35,927 nt of DNA from Thermoplasmata archaeon. Lineage in GTDB: Archaea > Thermoplasmatota > Thermoplasmata > Thermoplasmatales > Thermoplasmataceae. The stretch lies in assembly GCA_021797555.1 (NCBI GenBank), contig JAJZZM010000008.1, forward strand, positions 1 to 35,927. Reading direction: 5' to 3'. Of this stretch, positions 30,551-35,927 are shown piece after piece. A program made the translations under genes and the position numbers. Position 1 is the stretch's first letter, and every line of letters starts with the position of its first letter. The notes below the pieces were generated by a model. The model saw nothing but the letters and a program-made list of their open reading frames with translations, was not told the DNA's origin and did not search any database.

Positions 30551-30638
30551 GCCGGGGTGGCTCAGTTGGAAGAGCGTCGGACTCATAAGTTTATACTGAG
30601 AAATCCGAAGGCCTCGGGTTCAATCCCCGACCCCGGCA
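30551..30638 (+). tRNA. trnM: tRNA-Met (CAT), elongator type, with a 15-nt intron
   Basis: The parts are GCCGGGG (acceptor 5'), D arm GCTC...GAGC, anticodon stem TCGGA/TCCGA, loop with CAT at 30584-30586, variable AGGCC, T arm TCGGG TTCAATC CCCGA, acceptor 3' CCCCGGC and discriminator A. CCA is not encoded. The acceptor G1:C72 excludes an initiator. A CAT tRNA modified by TiaS would be Ile2, but the body matches archaeal elongator Met as I recall it. The intron at 30588-30602 lies between positions 37 and 38. Confidence 0.92.
30588..30602 (+). other. tRNA-Met intron in a bulge-helix-bulge context
   Basis: The intron AGTTTATACTGAGAA follows A37. Outer helix TCGGA/TCCGA, 3-nt bulge AAA on the 3' side, 4-bp helix CTCA/TGAG, 3-nt bulge TAA on the 5' side, then a GT/AC minihelix closing a four-base loop. 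This is a minimal strict bulge-helix-bulge for the archaeal splicing endonuclease, with cuts after the second base of each bulge. Confidence 0.85.
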
Positions 30639-30660
30639 CACTTTCAATGTTTTTATTGAC
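30639..30660 (+). terminator. Possible T-rich terminator after tRNA-Met
   Basis: CTTTCAATGTTTTTATTG follows the mature tRNA end and contains a run of five T. Archaeal transcription often ends in such T tracts. No hairpin is seen, so this is tentative. Confidence 0.3.
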
Positions 30661-30791: not shown

Positions 30792-32012
30792 ATGGGAATA
30801 TATTCAATAGAGCAGGATCTAAAAGCAGAATATAGTAGATTAAATAAAATACCTCAAAATGAAAGGAATAAAATAATAGATTTTGTAAAGGAAATAAAAA
30901 TAACAGGAATAACAGAATATAGAGAGTATTTTTATCTAGTAAGGTTAAGAATGATCTATTCATATTTAATGGATAAATTCTTAAATCCTGAAAAATCTGA
31001 TATAATAGACATGATTTTAAAATTTAAAGAAAAATACACAGACAAAACAATGATAGACTATGAAAGTGTAATGAAGAGATTTTATAAATGGCTTTACGGT
31101 CCATTGCCTGATTTTATGAATATAAAATTCAATCACAAATCAAGCCATGACAAGAAAATGGATCTAATAACAAGATCGGATATGGATGAATTAATAGGTG
31201 CATGCAATAATACCAGGGATAAAGCATTAATATCATTATTATACGATTCGGGATGCAGAATCGGTGAGATATTATCATTGAGAATGAATGATGTAATCTT
31301 TGATGAATATGGATTAATATTAAATGTGCATGGTAAAACAGGAAATAGAAGTGTAAGGATAGTAGGCGATTCAATAGCCTATTTAAAGGATTATTTAAAA
31401 TCAAAGGATGATAGGGATGAAAGCCTGTTTACAGGATTGCAAAAGCAGAATATGCACAGGCAAATGAAATACTATGATGCAAGGAAATTATTATTAAATT
31501 TAAAAGCAAGGACCGGAATAGAGAAAAGAATATACCCGCATTTATTCAGGCACACCAGGGCATCAATATTAGCATCAAAGGTTCCTGAATCACCTTTAGA
31601 AAATCAAATGGGGTGGGTCCATGGTTCTAAAATGACATCAGTATATGTGCATTTATCAATGAGGGATCAGGACAATGCAATTTTAAAAGCATATGGTATA
31701 AATGTTAATGAGAAGAATGAAATTGAGGAAAAACCTAAAAAATGCCCAAGATGTGATTATCTAAATCCGAGCAATGCTAAATACTGCCATAACTGCTGGC
31801 TTCCATTTGATGAGAAGTTAGCACTGGAATATGAAAATAAGGAAAAGGAAATAGAGGAAAAAATAGAGAATTCCGGGGCAATACCAGGAATAGCAAAGAA
31901 GATGATAGAGAATGCACCTGAAACATTTAAATCAAAATTAATAGAAAATGTTTTAGAGGAAATATTGAAGGATCCTGGCCTGTTAGAGAAATTCAGGGAT
32001 GAAATCAAGTAG
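30792..32012 (+). CDS. Tyrosine recombinase/integrase with C-terminal zinc ribbon
   Basis: A 406-residue site-specific recombinase. All catalytic residues can be placed: R156 (SGCRIGEIL), K182 (HGKTG), H250-x-x-R253 (HLFRH), H277 (GWVHG) and nucleophile Y285 (TSVYVHL). A SAM-like N-terminal domain precedes (about 20-110). After the catalytic domain comes CPRC-x10-CHNC (318-335), a zinc ribbon, then a helical acidic/basic tail (about 340-406). Cellular XerA is under 300 residues without this ribbon, so a mobile-element integrase is more likely. It begins 150 bp after tRNA-Met, a classical integration neighbourhood. I found no duplicated tRNA end in the window. Confidence 0.9.
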   Translation: MGIYSIEQDLKAEYSRLNKIPQNERNKIIDFVKEIKITGITEYREYFYLVRLRMIYSYLMDKFLNPEKSDIIDMILKFKEKYTDKTMIDYESVMKRFYKWLYGPLPDFMNIKFNHKSSHDKKMDLITRSDMDELIGACNNTRDKALISLLYDSGCRIGEILSLRMNDVIFDEYGLILNVHGKTGNRSVRIVGDSIAYLKDYLKSKDDRDESLFTGLQKQNMHRQMKYYDARKLLLNLKARTGIEKRIYPHLFRHTRASILASKVPESPLENQMGWVHGSKMTSVYVHLSMRDQDNAILKAYGINVNEKNEIEEKPKKCPRCDYLNPSNAKYCHNCWLPFDEKLALEYENKEKEIEEKIENSGAIPGIAKKMIENAPETFKSKLIENVLEEILKDPGLLEKFRDEIK

Positions 32013-32055: not shown

Positions 32056-32514
32056 ATGCAAATGGATAAAAAAATCAGATTACGGGGCGGTTATAGATAT
32101 ATCAAAAAAACAGATCAAGGAACAATTATCTCAGGAAATCAGGCAATGGATAGTATAAGCTTAGAAGACCTTTATAACATATCTTTGAAAGATAATAACA
32201 TAATTATAATAGTTAAGGAGGAAAAGAAAAAAACGGTTGCGTTTATGGAGATTATTAAAAATAGCACTTTTCATGTGGAATTAATTTCTGTTGATCACCG
32301 ATTTCAAAAAAGGGGACTCGGTACATCCATGCTTCACTTGGCAGAGAAAATTGCATCAAAATACGGTTTTACAGAAATTAGGTTGGATGCCGTTGAAGAC
32401 AAGGTTGAATTTTATAGAGATCTGGGCTATATAGAATATGGAGAAATGTTTTATGATTATGAATGGGGCAACCTACAGCCAATGAAGAAAAAAATAAAAA
32501 ATTATAAATACTAA
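32056..32514 (+). CDS. GNAT-family N-acetyltransferase
   Basis: 152 residues with the GNAT acetyl-CoA core: strand FHVELISVDHRF, then pyrophosphate-binding QKRGLGTSML (Q/RxxGxG/A), helix HLAEKIASKYG, strand EIRLDAV and the typical end FYRDLGYIEYG. The first 50 residues are less conserved. The acetyl acceptor (protein, small molecule, tRNA or toxin target) cannot be told. ATG codons at 32056 and 32062 both give similar products. It lies 43 nt after the integrase and 25 nt before the RHH gene, in a probable element-borne cluster. A paired GNAT-RHH toxin-antitoxin is conceivable: GNAT toxins (TacT/AtaT type) usually follow an RHH antitoxin, but here the order is reversed. Confidence 0.85.
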   Translation: MQMDKKIRLRGGYRYIKKTDQGTIISGNQAMDSISLEDLYNISLKDNNIIIIVKEEKKKTVAFMEIIKNSTFHVELISVDHRFQKRGLGTSMLHLAEKIASKYGFTEIRLDAVEDKVEFYRDLGYIEYGEMFYDYEWGNLQPMKKKIKNYKY

Positions 32515-32539: not shown

Positions 32540-32779
32540 ATGGTAGTAAAAAAAATATCAATTTCAATAGATGTGGAAGTGGATAAGGCCCTAAACATAC
32601 TTGCTGATGGGGAAATGATGAGTAAATCAAGATTAATAGAAAGCATAATATTGCACGACAAAAATATAAAAATGATTATAAACGCACAGAGGCATGATAC
32701 CGCTTCCGGAGTTTATGCAGTTCCAGGGCACAGGGAACACATTAACAAAGAAAAAGATAAAAAACAAATATTTCAATAA
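32540..32779 (+). CDS. Ribbon-helix-helix (CopG-like) DNA-binding protein
   Basis: 79 residues. The N-terminal 45 form an RHH unit: strand KKISISIDVEV, helix DKALNILADGEMMSKS, helix RLIESIILHD. The C-terminal part (HDTASGVYAVPGHREHINKEKDKK) is polar and probably a tail that contacts another protein or is disordered. RHH proteins bind palindromic operators as dimers and act as plasmid copy-number regulators, antitoxins or viral repressors. It sits immediately after the GNAT gene and could be its partner. The start ATG has GTAATACT before it, with no clear Shine-Dalgarno motif. Confidence 0.8.
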   Translation: MVVKKISISIDVEVDKALNILADGEMMSKSRLIESIILHDKNIKMIINAQRHDTASGVYAVPGHREHINKEKDKKQIFQ

Positions 32780-33566: not shown

Positions 33567-34025
33567 TTATTTGTTGAAAATAAGCCTGATTAACTCATCT
33601 GTGAATGTTTCATTTTCCTTTTTGTTTTTATCCAGATAACGCTTTAAACTTGATGATATTGCCAGTGTTGTTTTCATTCTATCATTTAGATCGATTTCAC
33701 TGGGTATTTTATCAATTTGATTATTATTTATTGTTTCCTGGTTAATGGATTTAGGGGTAATATCCGGTTTTTCAGGTTCAACGGATCTAACTGTTTCCTG
33801 GTTATCTTTAACTCTCTGGGCCTGCATTTTTCTGTGATATTCAATTAACTCCTGGTATTCCGAGCGGTAATAATATGAAAGGTAAAGGCCAATAAAAAGG
33901 AATGCTATGGAAATGAACCAGTATTTTTTGATGAAGAAAAATACAGATGCTGCCATGGCAATAAACGGAATTGAAACCAGATACCAGTGTTTTAAAAAGA
34001 ATACATAATATTTTACATTGGACAT
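33567..34025 (-). CDS. Membrane protein with two TM helices and a C-terminal RHH-like domain
   Basis: A 152-residue protein whose first 55 residues form two hydrophobic helices (about 14-32 and 36-53, with a K-K-Y turn). The middle (about 60-115) is a polar Pro/Gln-rich linker. The last 36 residues, MKTTLAISSSLKRYLDKNKKENETFTDELIRLIFNK (positions 117-152), resemble the VapB/AbrB-neighbour RHH class: strand, then helix LKRYLDK, then ETFTDELIRLIF. A membrane-tethered DNA-binding protein would be unusual. The DNA-binding part is inferred from sequence pattern, not demonstrated. Confidence 0.6.
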   Translation of the reverse strand: MSNVKYYVFFLKHWYLVSIPFIAMAASVFFFIKKYWFISIAFLFIGLYLSYYYRSEYQELIEYHRKMQAQRVKDNQETVRSVEPEKPDITPKSINQETINNNQIDKIPSEIDLNDRMKTTLAISSSLKRYLDKNKKENETFTDELIRLIFNK

Positions 34026-34371
34026 AAAATCATATATGGAATCAGAGCTATATAAGGTTTTATAACAATTTCAAAGAATTATAATGACATTATAATATGC
34101 ATGCATATTTTTATAAAATCATTATAGGATATAGGAAATTACAGGATTACTGTTAAAAATTAATGAAAAATATGAGATTATGGCCTTATTTTTTATGCAA
34201 AATTACAATGAAATTTTAAAAGAATAGTCCGGCAATACGTATTTAAAAAATCACAAAACCGATTGAAAAATTAGAATATTATGGATTCATATAACAGTGA
34301 CATAGATATTTTATAAGCTGTTATAATTTTGGTATAATCTTTATAAGACATATAAAAACAAAGGTTTTCTA

Positions 34372-34421
34372 ATGTTAAAAATTTTAAAATTGTTATAATG
34401 TCTTTAAAATATAGAAAAACA
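34372..34421 (+). repeat. 50-bp direct repeat, copy A
   Basis: Aligns without gaps to 34641-34690 with 39 of 50 positions equal by my count. It begins with an 8-codon ORF (MLKILKLL then TAA) preceded by AAAGGTTTTCTA. Confidence 0.5.
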
Positions 34422-34640
34422 CATGAAAATAAAGGAAAACTAACATTTATTATATTATAATTTAATCGGATTAAAAATATGCATTTTTATGCATTCCTTT
34501 AAAATGTGATAATTAAGACAAATACAATTTTAAAAAAATCACATGCCTATACCGTAATAATAAGGGTTTTATAGCAATAATATAAGAAAATATGAAATTG
34601 AAACAATTGTTATAAAACACAGTAAATTAAAGGATTTCAC

Positions 34641-34690
34641 ATGTTGCAAATTTTAAAATTATTGTGATTCATTTATAACATAGGAAAACA
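34641..34690 (+). repeat. 50-bp direct repeat, copy B
   Basis: Aligns with 34372-34421. Its 8-codon ORF reads MLQILKLL then TGA and is preceded by AAAGGATTTCAC. Confidence 0.5.
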
Positions 34691-34721
34691 AAGGCTCTAA
34701 ATTTAAAATATTAATATAAGA

Positions 34722-35003
34722 ATGGCATTAAAAAATGGTATTTTTGAAATTTTGAAATGGATATGGCACAAGAGAGAGAGGTATAAGGGGATAGGCTTTT
34801 TTTGGAAAATTTTTCATGGAATATTTAAGGGATGCTTTTCAATTTTATATTTTGGAAGGATCCATCGAACTTATCAGTTAGAATATACCAATGGCCAGTC
34901 ATGGACCAGGGCAAAAGATTGCCAGGAGATAAGATCTGATATCAGATTAATATCAGATATATGGAAATGCAGAAAAATCAGGGGTTATATACCTAAAATC
35001 TGA
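34722..35003 (+). CDS. Small basic, aromatic-rich protein (intact copy of a duplicated unit)
   Basis: 93 residues. The N-terminal half is amphipathic and rich in W, F, I and K (MALKNGIFEILKWIWHKRER...FFWKIFHGIFKGC), so it may associate with membranes. The C-terminal half is polar and ends SDIRLISDIWKCRKIRGYIPKI. That ending recurs in the decayed frame at 35059-35298 (SDIRRVSDIWGHRKIKDEIVKI). The middle RTYQLEYTNGQSW may be a degenerate version of RTVCLNCDG in the other copy. I do not recognise the family. Coding is uncertain because its most conserved DNA overlaps CTGATAT palindromes. Confidence 0.4.
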   Translation: MALKNGIFEILKWIWHKRERYKGIGFFWKIFHGIFKGCFSILYFGRIHRTYQLEYTNGQSWTRAKDCQEIRSDIRLISDIWKCRKIRGYIPKI

Positions 35004-35030
35004 TATGGCGGCTGCTGCTTCCTATTATTA
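34934..35030. repeat. 97-bp direct repeat, copy 1, with CTGATAT palindromes
   Basis: Ungapped match to 35229-35325 at a constant 295-bp offset, 69 of 97 identical by my count. Identity is concentrated in four blocks: ATCTGATATCAGA, TATCAGATATATGG, AAAATCTGATAT and TTCCTATTATTA. ATCTGATATCAGAT at 34934-34947 is a perfect 14-bp palindrome. Confidence 0.7.
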
Positions 35031-35058
35031 TATACATAGGAATAAAATAGTGTTTCAC

Positions 35059-35298
35059 ATGAAAATCAATAGTTTTAATCCGCAAAAATTTAGCAATAAA
35101 TTAAAGCAGTGGTTTAAAGGATTATCGCTAAAAATTGCAAATGCAGGATATTATAACAATATTTAGGCCTGAAGAACTGTATGCCTGAACTGTGATGGGA
35201 TATCAATACTAAAACAGATAGGATATAAATCTGATATCAGAAGAGTATCAGATATATGGGGACACCGTAAAATTAAGGATGAAATCGTGAAAATCTGA
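35059..35298 (+). pseudogene. Decayed paralogue of the 34722 small gene
   Basis: A single frame begins MKINSFNPQKFSNKL..., reaches a TAG at 35164-35166 and a TGA two codons later. It then continues RTVCLNCDGIS...SDIRRVSDIWGHRKIKDEIVKI to TGA at 35296-35298. Total length is about 80 codons, similar to the 93-codon intact copy, and the C-terminal 22 residues align with it. Two in-frame stops make it a broken gene. The first 35 codons could still be translated as a short peptide, after the GTGTTTCAC just upstream of the ATG. Confidence 0.45.
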
Positions 35299-35325
35299 TA
35301 TAGTGATGTTGATTTCCTATTATTA
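35229..35325. repeat. 97-bp direct repeat, copy 2
   Basis: Second copy of the repeat at 34934-35030. It keeps a 12-bp palindrome TCTGATATCAGA. Between the conserved blocks the sequence has diverged, including beyond the stop codon of the overlapping frame. Confidence 0.7.
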
Positions 35326-35348
35326 ATTAATAAAGAATAAAAAACAAA

Positions 35349-35648
35349 GTGAACATCCCGTGAACACTTACAGATATCGTGAAATAAATGATTTAAAAGT
35401 AAAGTGTTCACGTTCACTCATATTTCATGTGTAATATTAACTAATTAAGAATTAAAAACTAGGTGTTCCATTTTGATAAATTTCTTAAATCTCATATAGA
35501 TATAGTATTTTACTACATTGGCATTATAATTTTAGGTGTTCCACCTGAAAATTAGTATTTTTCTATACCTCTAATAGATTTTAAAAACAATGAAACACTT
35601 AAAGACATGGTAATTTAAAGGCTTGGCATTTAAAATTTAAGTGTTCCA
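35349..35648. repeat. Iteron cluster GTGTTCCA / GTGTTCAC
   Basis: GTGTTCCA occurs at 35463-35470, 35536-35543 and 35641-35648, each preceded by RG or AA. GTGAACA occurs at 35349 and 35360, 11 bp apart. GTGTTCAC is at 35404-35411, with GTTCAC directly after it. Looser GTGTTTCA copies are at 35050-35057 (plus) and 35591-35598 (minus). Orientation is mixed. Possible replication, partition or repressor sites. Confidence 0.65.
35359..35412. repeat. 11-bp perfect inverted repeat around a 32-nt AT-rich centre
   Basis: CGTGAACACTT (35359-35369) and AAGTGTTCACG (35402-35412) are exact inverse complements. They lie within the iteron cluster and could form a cruciform or bind a dimeric initiator or repressor. 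Confidence 0.75.
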
Positions 35649-35775
35649 TTTCAACCTCTATTTCCTTATATATAATTATAAAGGCAATGTAAAATTATTT
35701 TGCCCAATGCTCATAAAAATTTGAGAACCATATAACTATAAGAGTATAAAAAATATTAATACAGAAATCATATGG

Positions 35776-35927
35776 ATGAATATGATAGATAGCATTAAAC
35801 TTCGTTCTCCATATACAAGAAATATAAAAAGGTACTTAAACAAAGATTTTGGATCTGATGATGTTTATATGAACAATATAAAACTAGATGAATATATTAA
35901 ATTTGGAAAATATGATAAACATGACGT
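35776..35927 (+). CDS. Start of a gene running off the window (partial)
   Basis: ATG at 35776 opens a frame without stop to the window end, about 50 residues: MNMIDSIKLRSPYTRNIKRY then LNKDFGSDDVYMNNIKLDEYIKFGK. An out-of-frame ATG at 35772 closes after six codons. GAGTATAAAAAATATT at about 35741-35756 lies some 25-30 nt ahead, a good leaderless promoter. The fragment is soluble and charged. The family is not recognised; its domains lie beyond the window. Its position just after the iteron cluster fits a replication, maintenance or defence gene of the element, by context only. Confidence 0.6.
   Translation, partial: MNMIDSIKLRSPYTRNIKRYLNKDFGSDDVYMNNIKLDEYIKFGKYDKHD

Follow-up and report, generated by a model that had tools for sequence, protein, structure and literature searches.

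The analysis described here dealt with a repeat region (positions 34934 to 35685) in the genome of an acid-loving, Thermoplasmatales-type archaeon. The region was located in an integrated mobile element on contig C20, which was analyzed over its complete length of 35,927 bp (the window) and which belonged to a 24-contig, 1.94-Mb genome with a completeness of 99.6%. It was a compound region of four modules (A, B, B', and C), each of which was closed by an AT-rich tract. With moderate confidence, we propose that it is an orphaned origin module, composed of repeated short words (iterons) and an AT tract, of elements that encode a DnaA-like ATPase. The wider pattern suggested by the sequence comparisons, in which DnaA-like ATPases of the Sulfolobus spindle-shaped virus (SSV) type each appear to have their own iteron word 3' of the gene, is our main result. 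We found no description of this pattern in the literature searched, and no paper that combined Thermoplasmatales and iteron was retrieved.

The modules followed a common plan, in which a short word was repeated in both inverted and direct orientation and, after a short gap, a tract of A and T nucleotides only followed. The features were as follows.

34934..35047, forward strand: module A, with the dyad TCTGATATCAGA, an inverted half-site at 34950-34957, a half-site at 34999-35006, and TGGCGGCTGCTGC.
35229..35342, forward strand: module B, a diverged tandem copy of module A in which the half-sites were retained and the GC stretch was gone, with an AT tract at 35314-35325.
35349..35455, forward strand: module B', with GTGAACA at 35349 and 35360, GTGTTCAC at 35404, GTTCACGTTCAC at 35406-35417, and an AT tract at 35421-35455.
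35463..35648, forward strand: module C iterons, with GTGTTCCA at 35463, 35536, and 35641 (forward) and GTGTTTCA at 35598-35591 (reverse).
35661..35685, forward strand: AT tract TTTCCTTATATATAATTATAAAGGC, the end of module C and a candidate unwinding element, which aligned with the ends of the post-ATPase regions in genomes G067 and G060.

The word was TCTGATAT in modules A and B, GTGAACA/GTTCAC in module B', and GTGTTCCA in module C. Modules A and B were 295 bp apart, and both contained the dyad, the inverted half-site, about 50 nt, the second half-site, TGGCGGCTGCTGC, and an AT tract (TTCCTATTATTATATA at 35019-35034 in module A; CCTATTATTATATA in the pattern common to both). Thus, at least three copies of a short word were present in non-coding DNA, and an AT tract with a putative role in unwinding followed the last half-site in all four modules and in the relatives. 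A first-pass annotation of this DNA had pointed out three exact GTGTTCCA copies (35463-35470, 35536-35543, and 35641-35648), two GTGAACA copies with a spacing of 11 bp, adjacent GTTCAC repeats, and an 11-bp inverted repeat (CGTGAACACTT/AAGTGTTCACG at 35359-35369/35402-35412), and all were located where it had placed them. It had also described two looser GTGTTTCA copies as flanking the cluster; both were present, one at 35050-35057, but the second (35591-35598) was inside the cluster. The stronger TCTGATAT modules had been overlooked. Two other readings of module A were rejected. The reading frame KSDMAAAASYYY at 34994, considered as a transposase remnant, was judged non-coding because relatives conserved the DNA in differing frames. 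A stem-loop origin like that of plasmid pRN1 was rejected because the dyad TCTGATATCAGA had no loop.

The surroundings of the modules were gene-poor, AT-rich, and degenerate, and the ATPase gene was missing, as would be expected if the repeats were fortuitous or were decayed and functionless. The word counts did not fit this explanation. The word GTGTTYCA occurred 7 times in the window compared to an expected 1.31 (none of 100 shuffled sequences contained 7), and five of the seven copies were in the cluster. The word-repeat statistic for 35340-35660 was above those of 200 of 200 dinucleotide shuffles. Sites like AGTGTTYCANNTGAAA, with at most one mismatch to AGTGTTCCANNTGAAA, were limited to two (35049 and 35535) in all of the 1.94-Mb genome. 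In addition, the half-sites were conserved, and the same layout and gene position were found in other genomes. We excluded chance because the cluster recurred in this way, and we consider a chance or decayed origin of the repeats, taken together, to be very improbable.

The recurrence was clearest in a contig of the same genus (G067:C46; record JAKADL010000017.1), where a module C counterpart that was 73% identical (locus L069:3008-3238) started at the stop codon of a gene for a 333-aa P-loop ATPase. The layout was that of module C in the window, namely, forward, forward, inverted, forward, and AT tract. The first-pass annotation had proposed scanning relatives for the iterons near initiator genes, and about ten additional elements had equivalent clusters, with other words, behind this gene. 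These modules were directly 3' of the ATPase gene in G068, G105, G078, G092, G070, G114, G111, G080, G082, and G060, with the following words.

G068: ATGGGATAT.
G105, G092, and G070: TGGCATGT.
G078, G114, and G111: TGTCATGT-like.
G080 and G082: GTGTCCTC or TGTCCCC types.
G060: GTGTCCCA.

The word changed between elements and was repeated within each, and the layout around the AT tract was constant. A stretch about 83% identical to module B' was also present in G068 (L068:8537-8767). A DnaA-like ATPase was encoded directly upstream of the modules in relatives, and no such gene was found beside the modules in the window.

The fixed distance between the last half-site and the TATA-like tract would also suit an operator-promoter arrangement, in which the ATPase or an element regulator, such as a ribbon-helix-helix (RHH) protein, would use the words as operators, and the TATTATTATATA tract would serve as the TATA box of a transcription unit. 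The elements carried small RHH-like genes, and dyads are typical of operators as well. However, the next gene had its own TTTAAATA promoter about 50-60 bp further along in G105, G078, G092, G070, G114, and G111, and the next gene in G071 was convergent. Moreover, no gene start was found near modules A, B, and B' in the window, and the repeats followed the C-terminal domain of the ATPase. An operator-promoter function is therefore rather unlikely in our view, though it is the strongest competitor of the origin module.

The ATPase family was found in 25 of the 117 genomes of the order, and the relatives identified were Thermoplasmata/Thermoplasmatales metagenome assemblies. All 14 ATPases that were scanned matched phrog_5484, a DnaA-like replication initiation protein (best E value, 1e-12). 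This label derives from the B251 type of the fusellovirus SSV, arCOG07960 (PMC4158269, PMC9608457). A homologue with the same DnaA-like annotation was found in the Haloferax lemon-shaped virus LSV-48N (E value, 6e-16). In the window genome, no relative of the ATPase, the phrog_5484-type protein expected of an SSV-type element, was detected at an E value of ≤1e-15, and a tblastn search of the window for an ATPase remnant gave no significant match. The relatives with module C did encode such an ATPase. The viral contigs scanned with the integrase and the ATPase yielded no matches or ClpX-like false positives, and searches of plasmids for related elements returned nothing useful.

The ATPases in the related elements are members or remote relatives of the SSV1 B251/arCOG07960 group, and both occur in integrating archaeal elements. 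Unlike SSV1 B251, these ATPases carried zinc ribbons or a helix-turn-helix (HTH) at the C-terminus, and iterons were clustered immediately 3' of their genes. In the literature searched (PMC4158269, PMC9608457, PMC4124505), no cognate site was reported for B251, which another review gives as a Lon-type protease (PMC4124505). Replication and packaging have each been proposed as the role of B251 (PMC9608457). In another reading, the ATPase would be a motor for packaging or segregation that acts on the iterons as its pac or centromere-like site, and large, virus-like proteins with Ig/PKD repeats were encoded in the G068 and G105 elements. In contrast, the ATPase had no terminase-type or FtsK/HerA match in Pfam, and an AT tract at a fixed spacing is an origin trait that packaging does not require. 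We regard a packaging or partition site as improbable, more so than an operator-promoter. The Ig/PKD-repeat-like proteins (L085:254-5062 and L088:15587-19846; 1602 and 1419 aa) were hydrophobic in a C-terminal segment and weakly matched Hoc-like PHROGs, and the elements that encode them together with a DnaA-like ATPase may represent proviruses from a group of viruses not yet on record.

The C-termini of the ATPases fell into three groups: those with an HTH (G067 and G060), those with one or two zinc ribbons (the group of G068, G105, and G078), and those in which no DNA-binding domain was recognizable. Repeats that were significant relative to shuffled sequences (P ≤ 0.05) were present 3' of the gene for 9 of the 15 ATPases with a C-terminal DNA-binding domain and for none of the 9 without. 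The ATPase core of G067 was 51-57% identical to those of the group that lacked both the domain and the iterons, yet G067 had both. Conversely, the cores of G092 and G078 were 96% identical, and their words differed. The TGGCATGT and TGTCATGY groups were separated by only four protein columns, three of which were in zinc ribbon 2, inside a span of five residues.

A second set of observations came from TCTGATAT modules that had no adjoining ATPase gene. When the two copies in the window and those in G068 and G067:C81 were compared, 27 of the 28 half-site columns were invariant, compared to 44 of the 91 other columns (Fisher test, 1.4e-6). The same type of module was found without an ATPase in G048, G060/61/62, G064, and G071. 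Because nearly all half-site columns were invariant despite the absence of an adjoining ATPase, the orphan modules seem to be under continuing selection or to be recent. The closest colinear element was G067:C81, which encoded an integrase, a membrane protein, module A, a 391-aa protein, and a PrimPol-D5 replicase. On the reverse complement of this locus (L070, 8740-9020), seven exact TGCGAAAA/TTTTCGCA copies were found, and none occurred elsewhere in 15 kb. This second iteron cluster adjoined the 3' end of the uncharacterized 391-aa gene (L070:4505-5680), the product of which is possibly a further initiator. In G068, an orphan TCTGATAT module and GTGAACA iterons were located a few kb from genes for a Cas3-like helicase, a GNAT protein, and an RHH protein (L068; G068:C1:1416001-1435000).

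In the mechanism that we favor for the origin module, the C-terminal HTH or zinc ribbons would bind the ATPase to its own iterons, and the protein would assemble with ATP; the assembly would melt the adjacent AT tract, from which the excised element would begin to replicate. We consider the copy in the window to be most probably an orphan or helper-dependent module, either a remnant or a module that relies on the ATPase of another element. An experimental precedent is the pRN1 plasmid of Sulfolobus, in which the origin is 3' of the replication gene (PMC4234260), as proposed here. A PrimPol-D5 gene also occurs in the G067:C81 relative. The two differ in that pRN1 combines a PrimPol-helicase with a 100-nt stem-loop (PMC4234260), whereas loopless dyads and iterons were found here. 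The modules also resemble iteron plasmid origins, which have direct and inverted copies of a short word by an AT tract, an adjoining candidate initiator gene, and an element-specific word. Unlike those origins, the candidate initiator here is a P-loop ATPase rather than a winged-helix Rep protein, the copies are few and widely spaced, and the function is putative.

Several results weigh against the origin module. No ATPase gene adjoined the modules in the window or several of the other orphans. The ATPases of L095, L097, L118, L112, and L119 have zinc ribbons or an HTH, yet no significant repeats were found behind them, and no clear iterons were found behind the LSV-48N homologue. The AlphaFold model of the ATPase was of low confidence (mean predicted local distance difference test score, 44), a sequence search of the PDB gave weak Walker A or zinc-finger matches, and the DnaA-like label reflects remote similarity and the annotation of SSV B251, the role of which is itself putative. 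Furthermore, linkage could account for the correlation between word and C-terminus because the C-terminal codons adjoin the iterons; recombination of such a linked segment could mimic coadaptation, and the sample was small. A more far-reaching idea, which we offer tentatively and hold to be less probable than the origin module itself, is that SSV-type DnaA-like ATPases genuinely bind origins as initiators and, in Thermoplasmatales elements, have exchangeable C-terminal heads (an HTH or twin zinc ribbons), that a specificity patch in zinc ribbon 2 changes together with the word, and that selection keeps orphans as origins served in trans by the initiator of another element, as in satellites or incompatibility.

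The first-pass annotation had likened one iteron copy to the origin recognition boxes (ORBs) of archaeal Orc1/Cdc6. One site, GTTCCACCTGAAAA, contained TTCCA-nnn-GAAA with a spacing like that of the archaeal ORB core, which would fit a host-type origin bound by the chromosomal Orc1/Cdc6. However, the TGAAA half was absent from most copies, the word varied by element, and no Orc1/Cdc6 gene was found among the window open reading frames (ORFs) scanned or adjoining the modules. The orc1 gene was on another contig, no ORB-like or repeated words were found beside it, and the ORB-like sequence of a relative, TTTCCACAGGAAACTGTGGG, was unmatched here within 3 mismatches. The resemblance to ORBs was thus not borne out, and we consider a host-type origin to be extremely improbable, the least probable of the explanations examined.

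The integrated element was recognized by a tyrosine recombinase gene beside a tRNA gene and by the accessory genes that followed. The tRNA-Met gene is the probable integration site. The features outside the repeat region were as follows.

30551..30639, forward strand: tRNA-Met with an intron and a CAT anticodon (ARAGORN match; anticodon and intron read in the sequence).
30792..32012, forward strand: intact tyrosine recombinase (integrase) gene (Pfam PF00589, E value of 5.5e-23; phrog_1).
32056..32514, forward strand: GNAT acetyltransferase gene, an accessory gene (Pfam).
32540..32779, forward strand: gene for a small, 79-aa RHH-like protein (weak Pfam RHH_1 match, E value of 0.004, below the cut-off).
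33567..34025, reverse strand: gene for a putative 152-aa membrane protein with a colinear counterpart in G067:C81 (L070:7759-8256).
35782..35927, forward strand: first 48 codons of an accessory gene that was truncated where the contig ended, 91% identical to G094:C1:486185-486322.

The contig ended at 35927, which was 146 bp inside the last gene and 279 bp past the last iteron, and the far end of the element, where a second direct-repeat att site would be expected, was beyond this point. The several kb in which the first-pass annotation expected an initiator or partition gene also extended past the contig. The gene at 35782 had been put forward as a possible replication or partition gene, and we rejected it as a Rep or ParA gene; it was the N-terminus of a truncated accessory gene, and its 48 available codons showed no similarity to initiators. 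In G094, an acetyltransferase-like ORF (recognized by eye, without a Pfam match) came after the homologue in a different frame, and an RHH-type ORF and then a type IIG-like restriction-modification gene were located further along. Overall, the earlier interpretation was partly supported: it was right in kind, since the iterons recurred directly 3' of a DnaA-like ATPase gene in a same-genus element, in keeping with a region that serves an integrated plasmid or virus as its origin or control region, and it was wrong about the downstream gene and the resemblance to ORBs.

The G094 locus (L013; G094:C1:478001-498000), which is from another genus, was a partly colinear island near a tRNA-Phe gene that was without the entire iteron region. 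It contained an integrase remnant and GNAT, RHH, acetyltransferase-like, and type IIG-like restriction-modification genes. Insertion of a 0.9-kb mobile piece in the window relative to G094 was rejected; loss of the region in G094 is more likely because the flank and module A are contiguous in G067:C81. Upstream of module A, window positions 34321-34720 were noncoding and contained diverged repeats (AAAACA..AAAGG and ATGTTAAAAATTTTAAAATT) that were partly common to G094 and G067:C81. Beside the ATPase element of G067:C46 (L069:6185-12000) was defense-like cargo, with Dam-like methyltransferase-like, radical-SAM-like, GmrSD-type restriction, and cytosine methyltransferase-like ORFs. In G068, the same element segment was present twice, 29.4 kb apart, with identical flanking ORFs (L085 and L086; G068:C1:1828410 and 1857841), possibly because of tandem or recent integration or because the assembly was affected near the end of the contig.

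The SSV-type DnaA-like ATPase recurs in archaeal spindle-shaped viruses and integrated elements, and its role, proposed in 1992, is still putative. A candidate cognate site is now available behind the gene in many elements, and the natural variants would allow direct tests of binding and replication. The iterons could help to detect such elements, and the origin modules could serve as the basis of vectors in acidophilic archaea.
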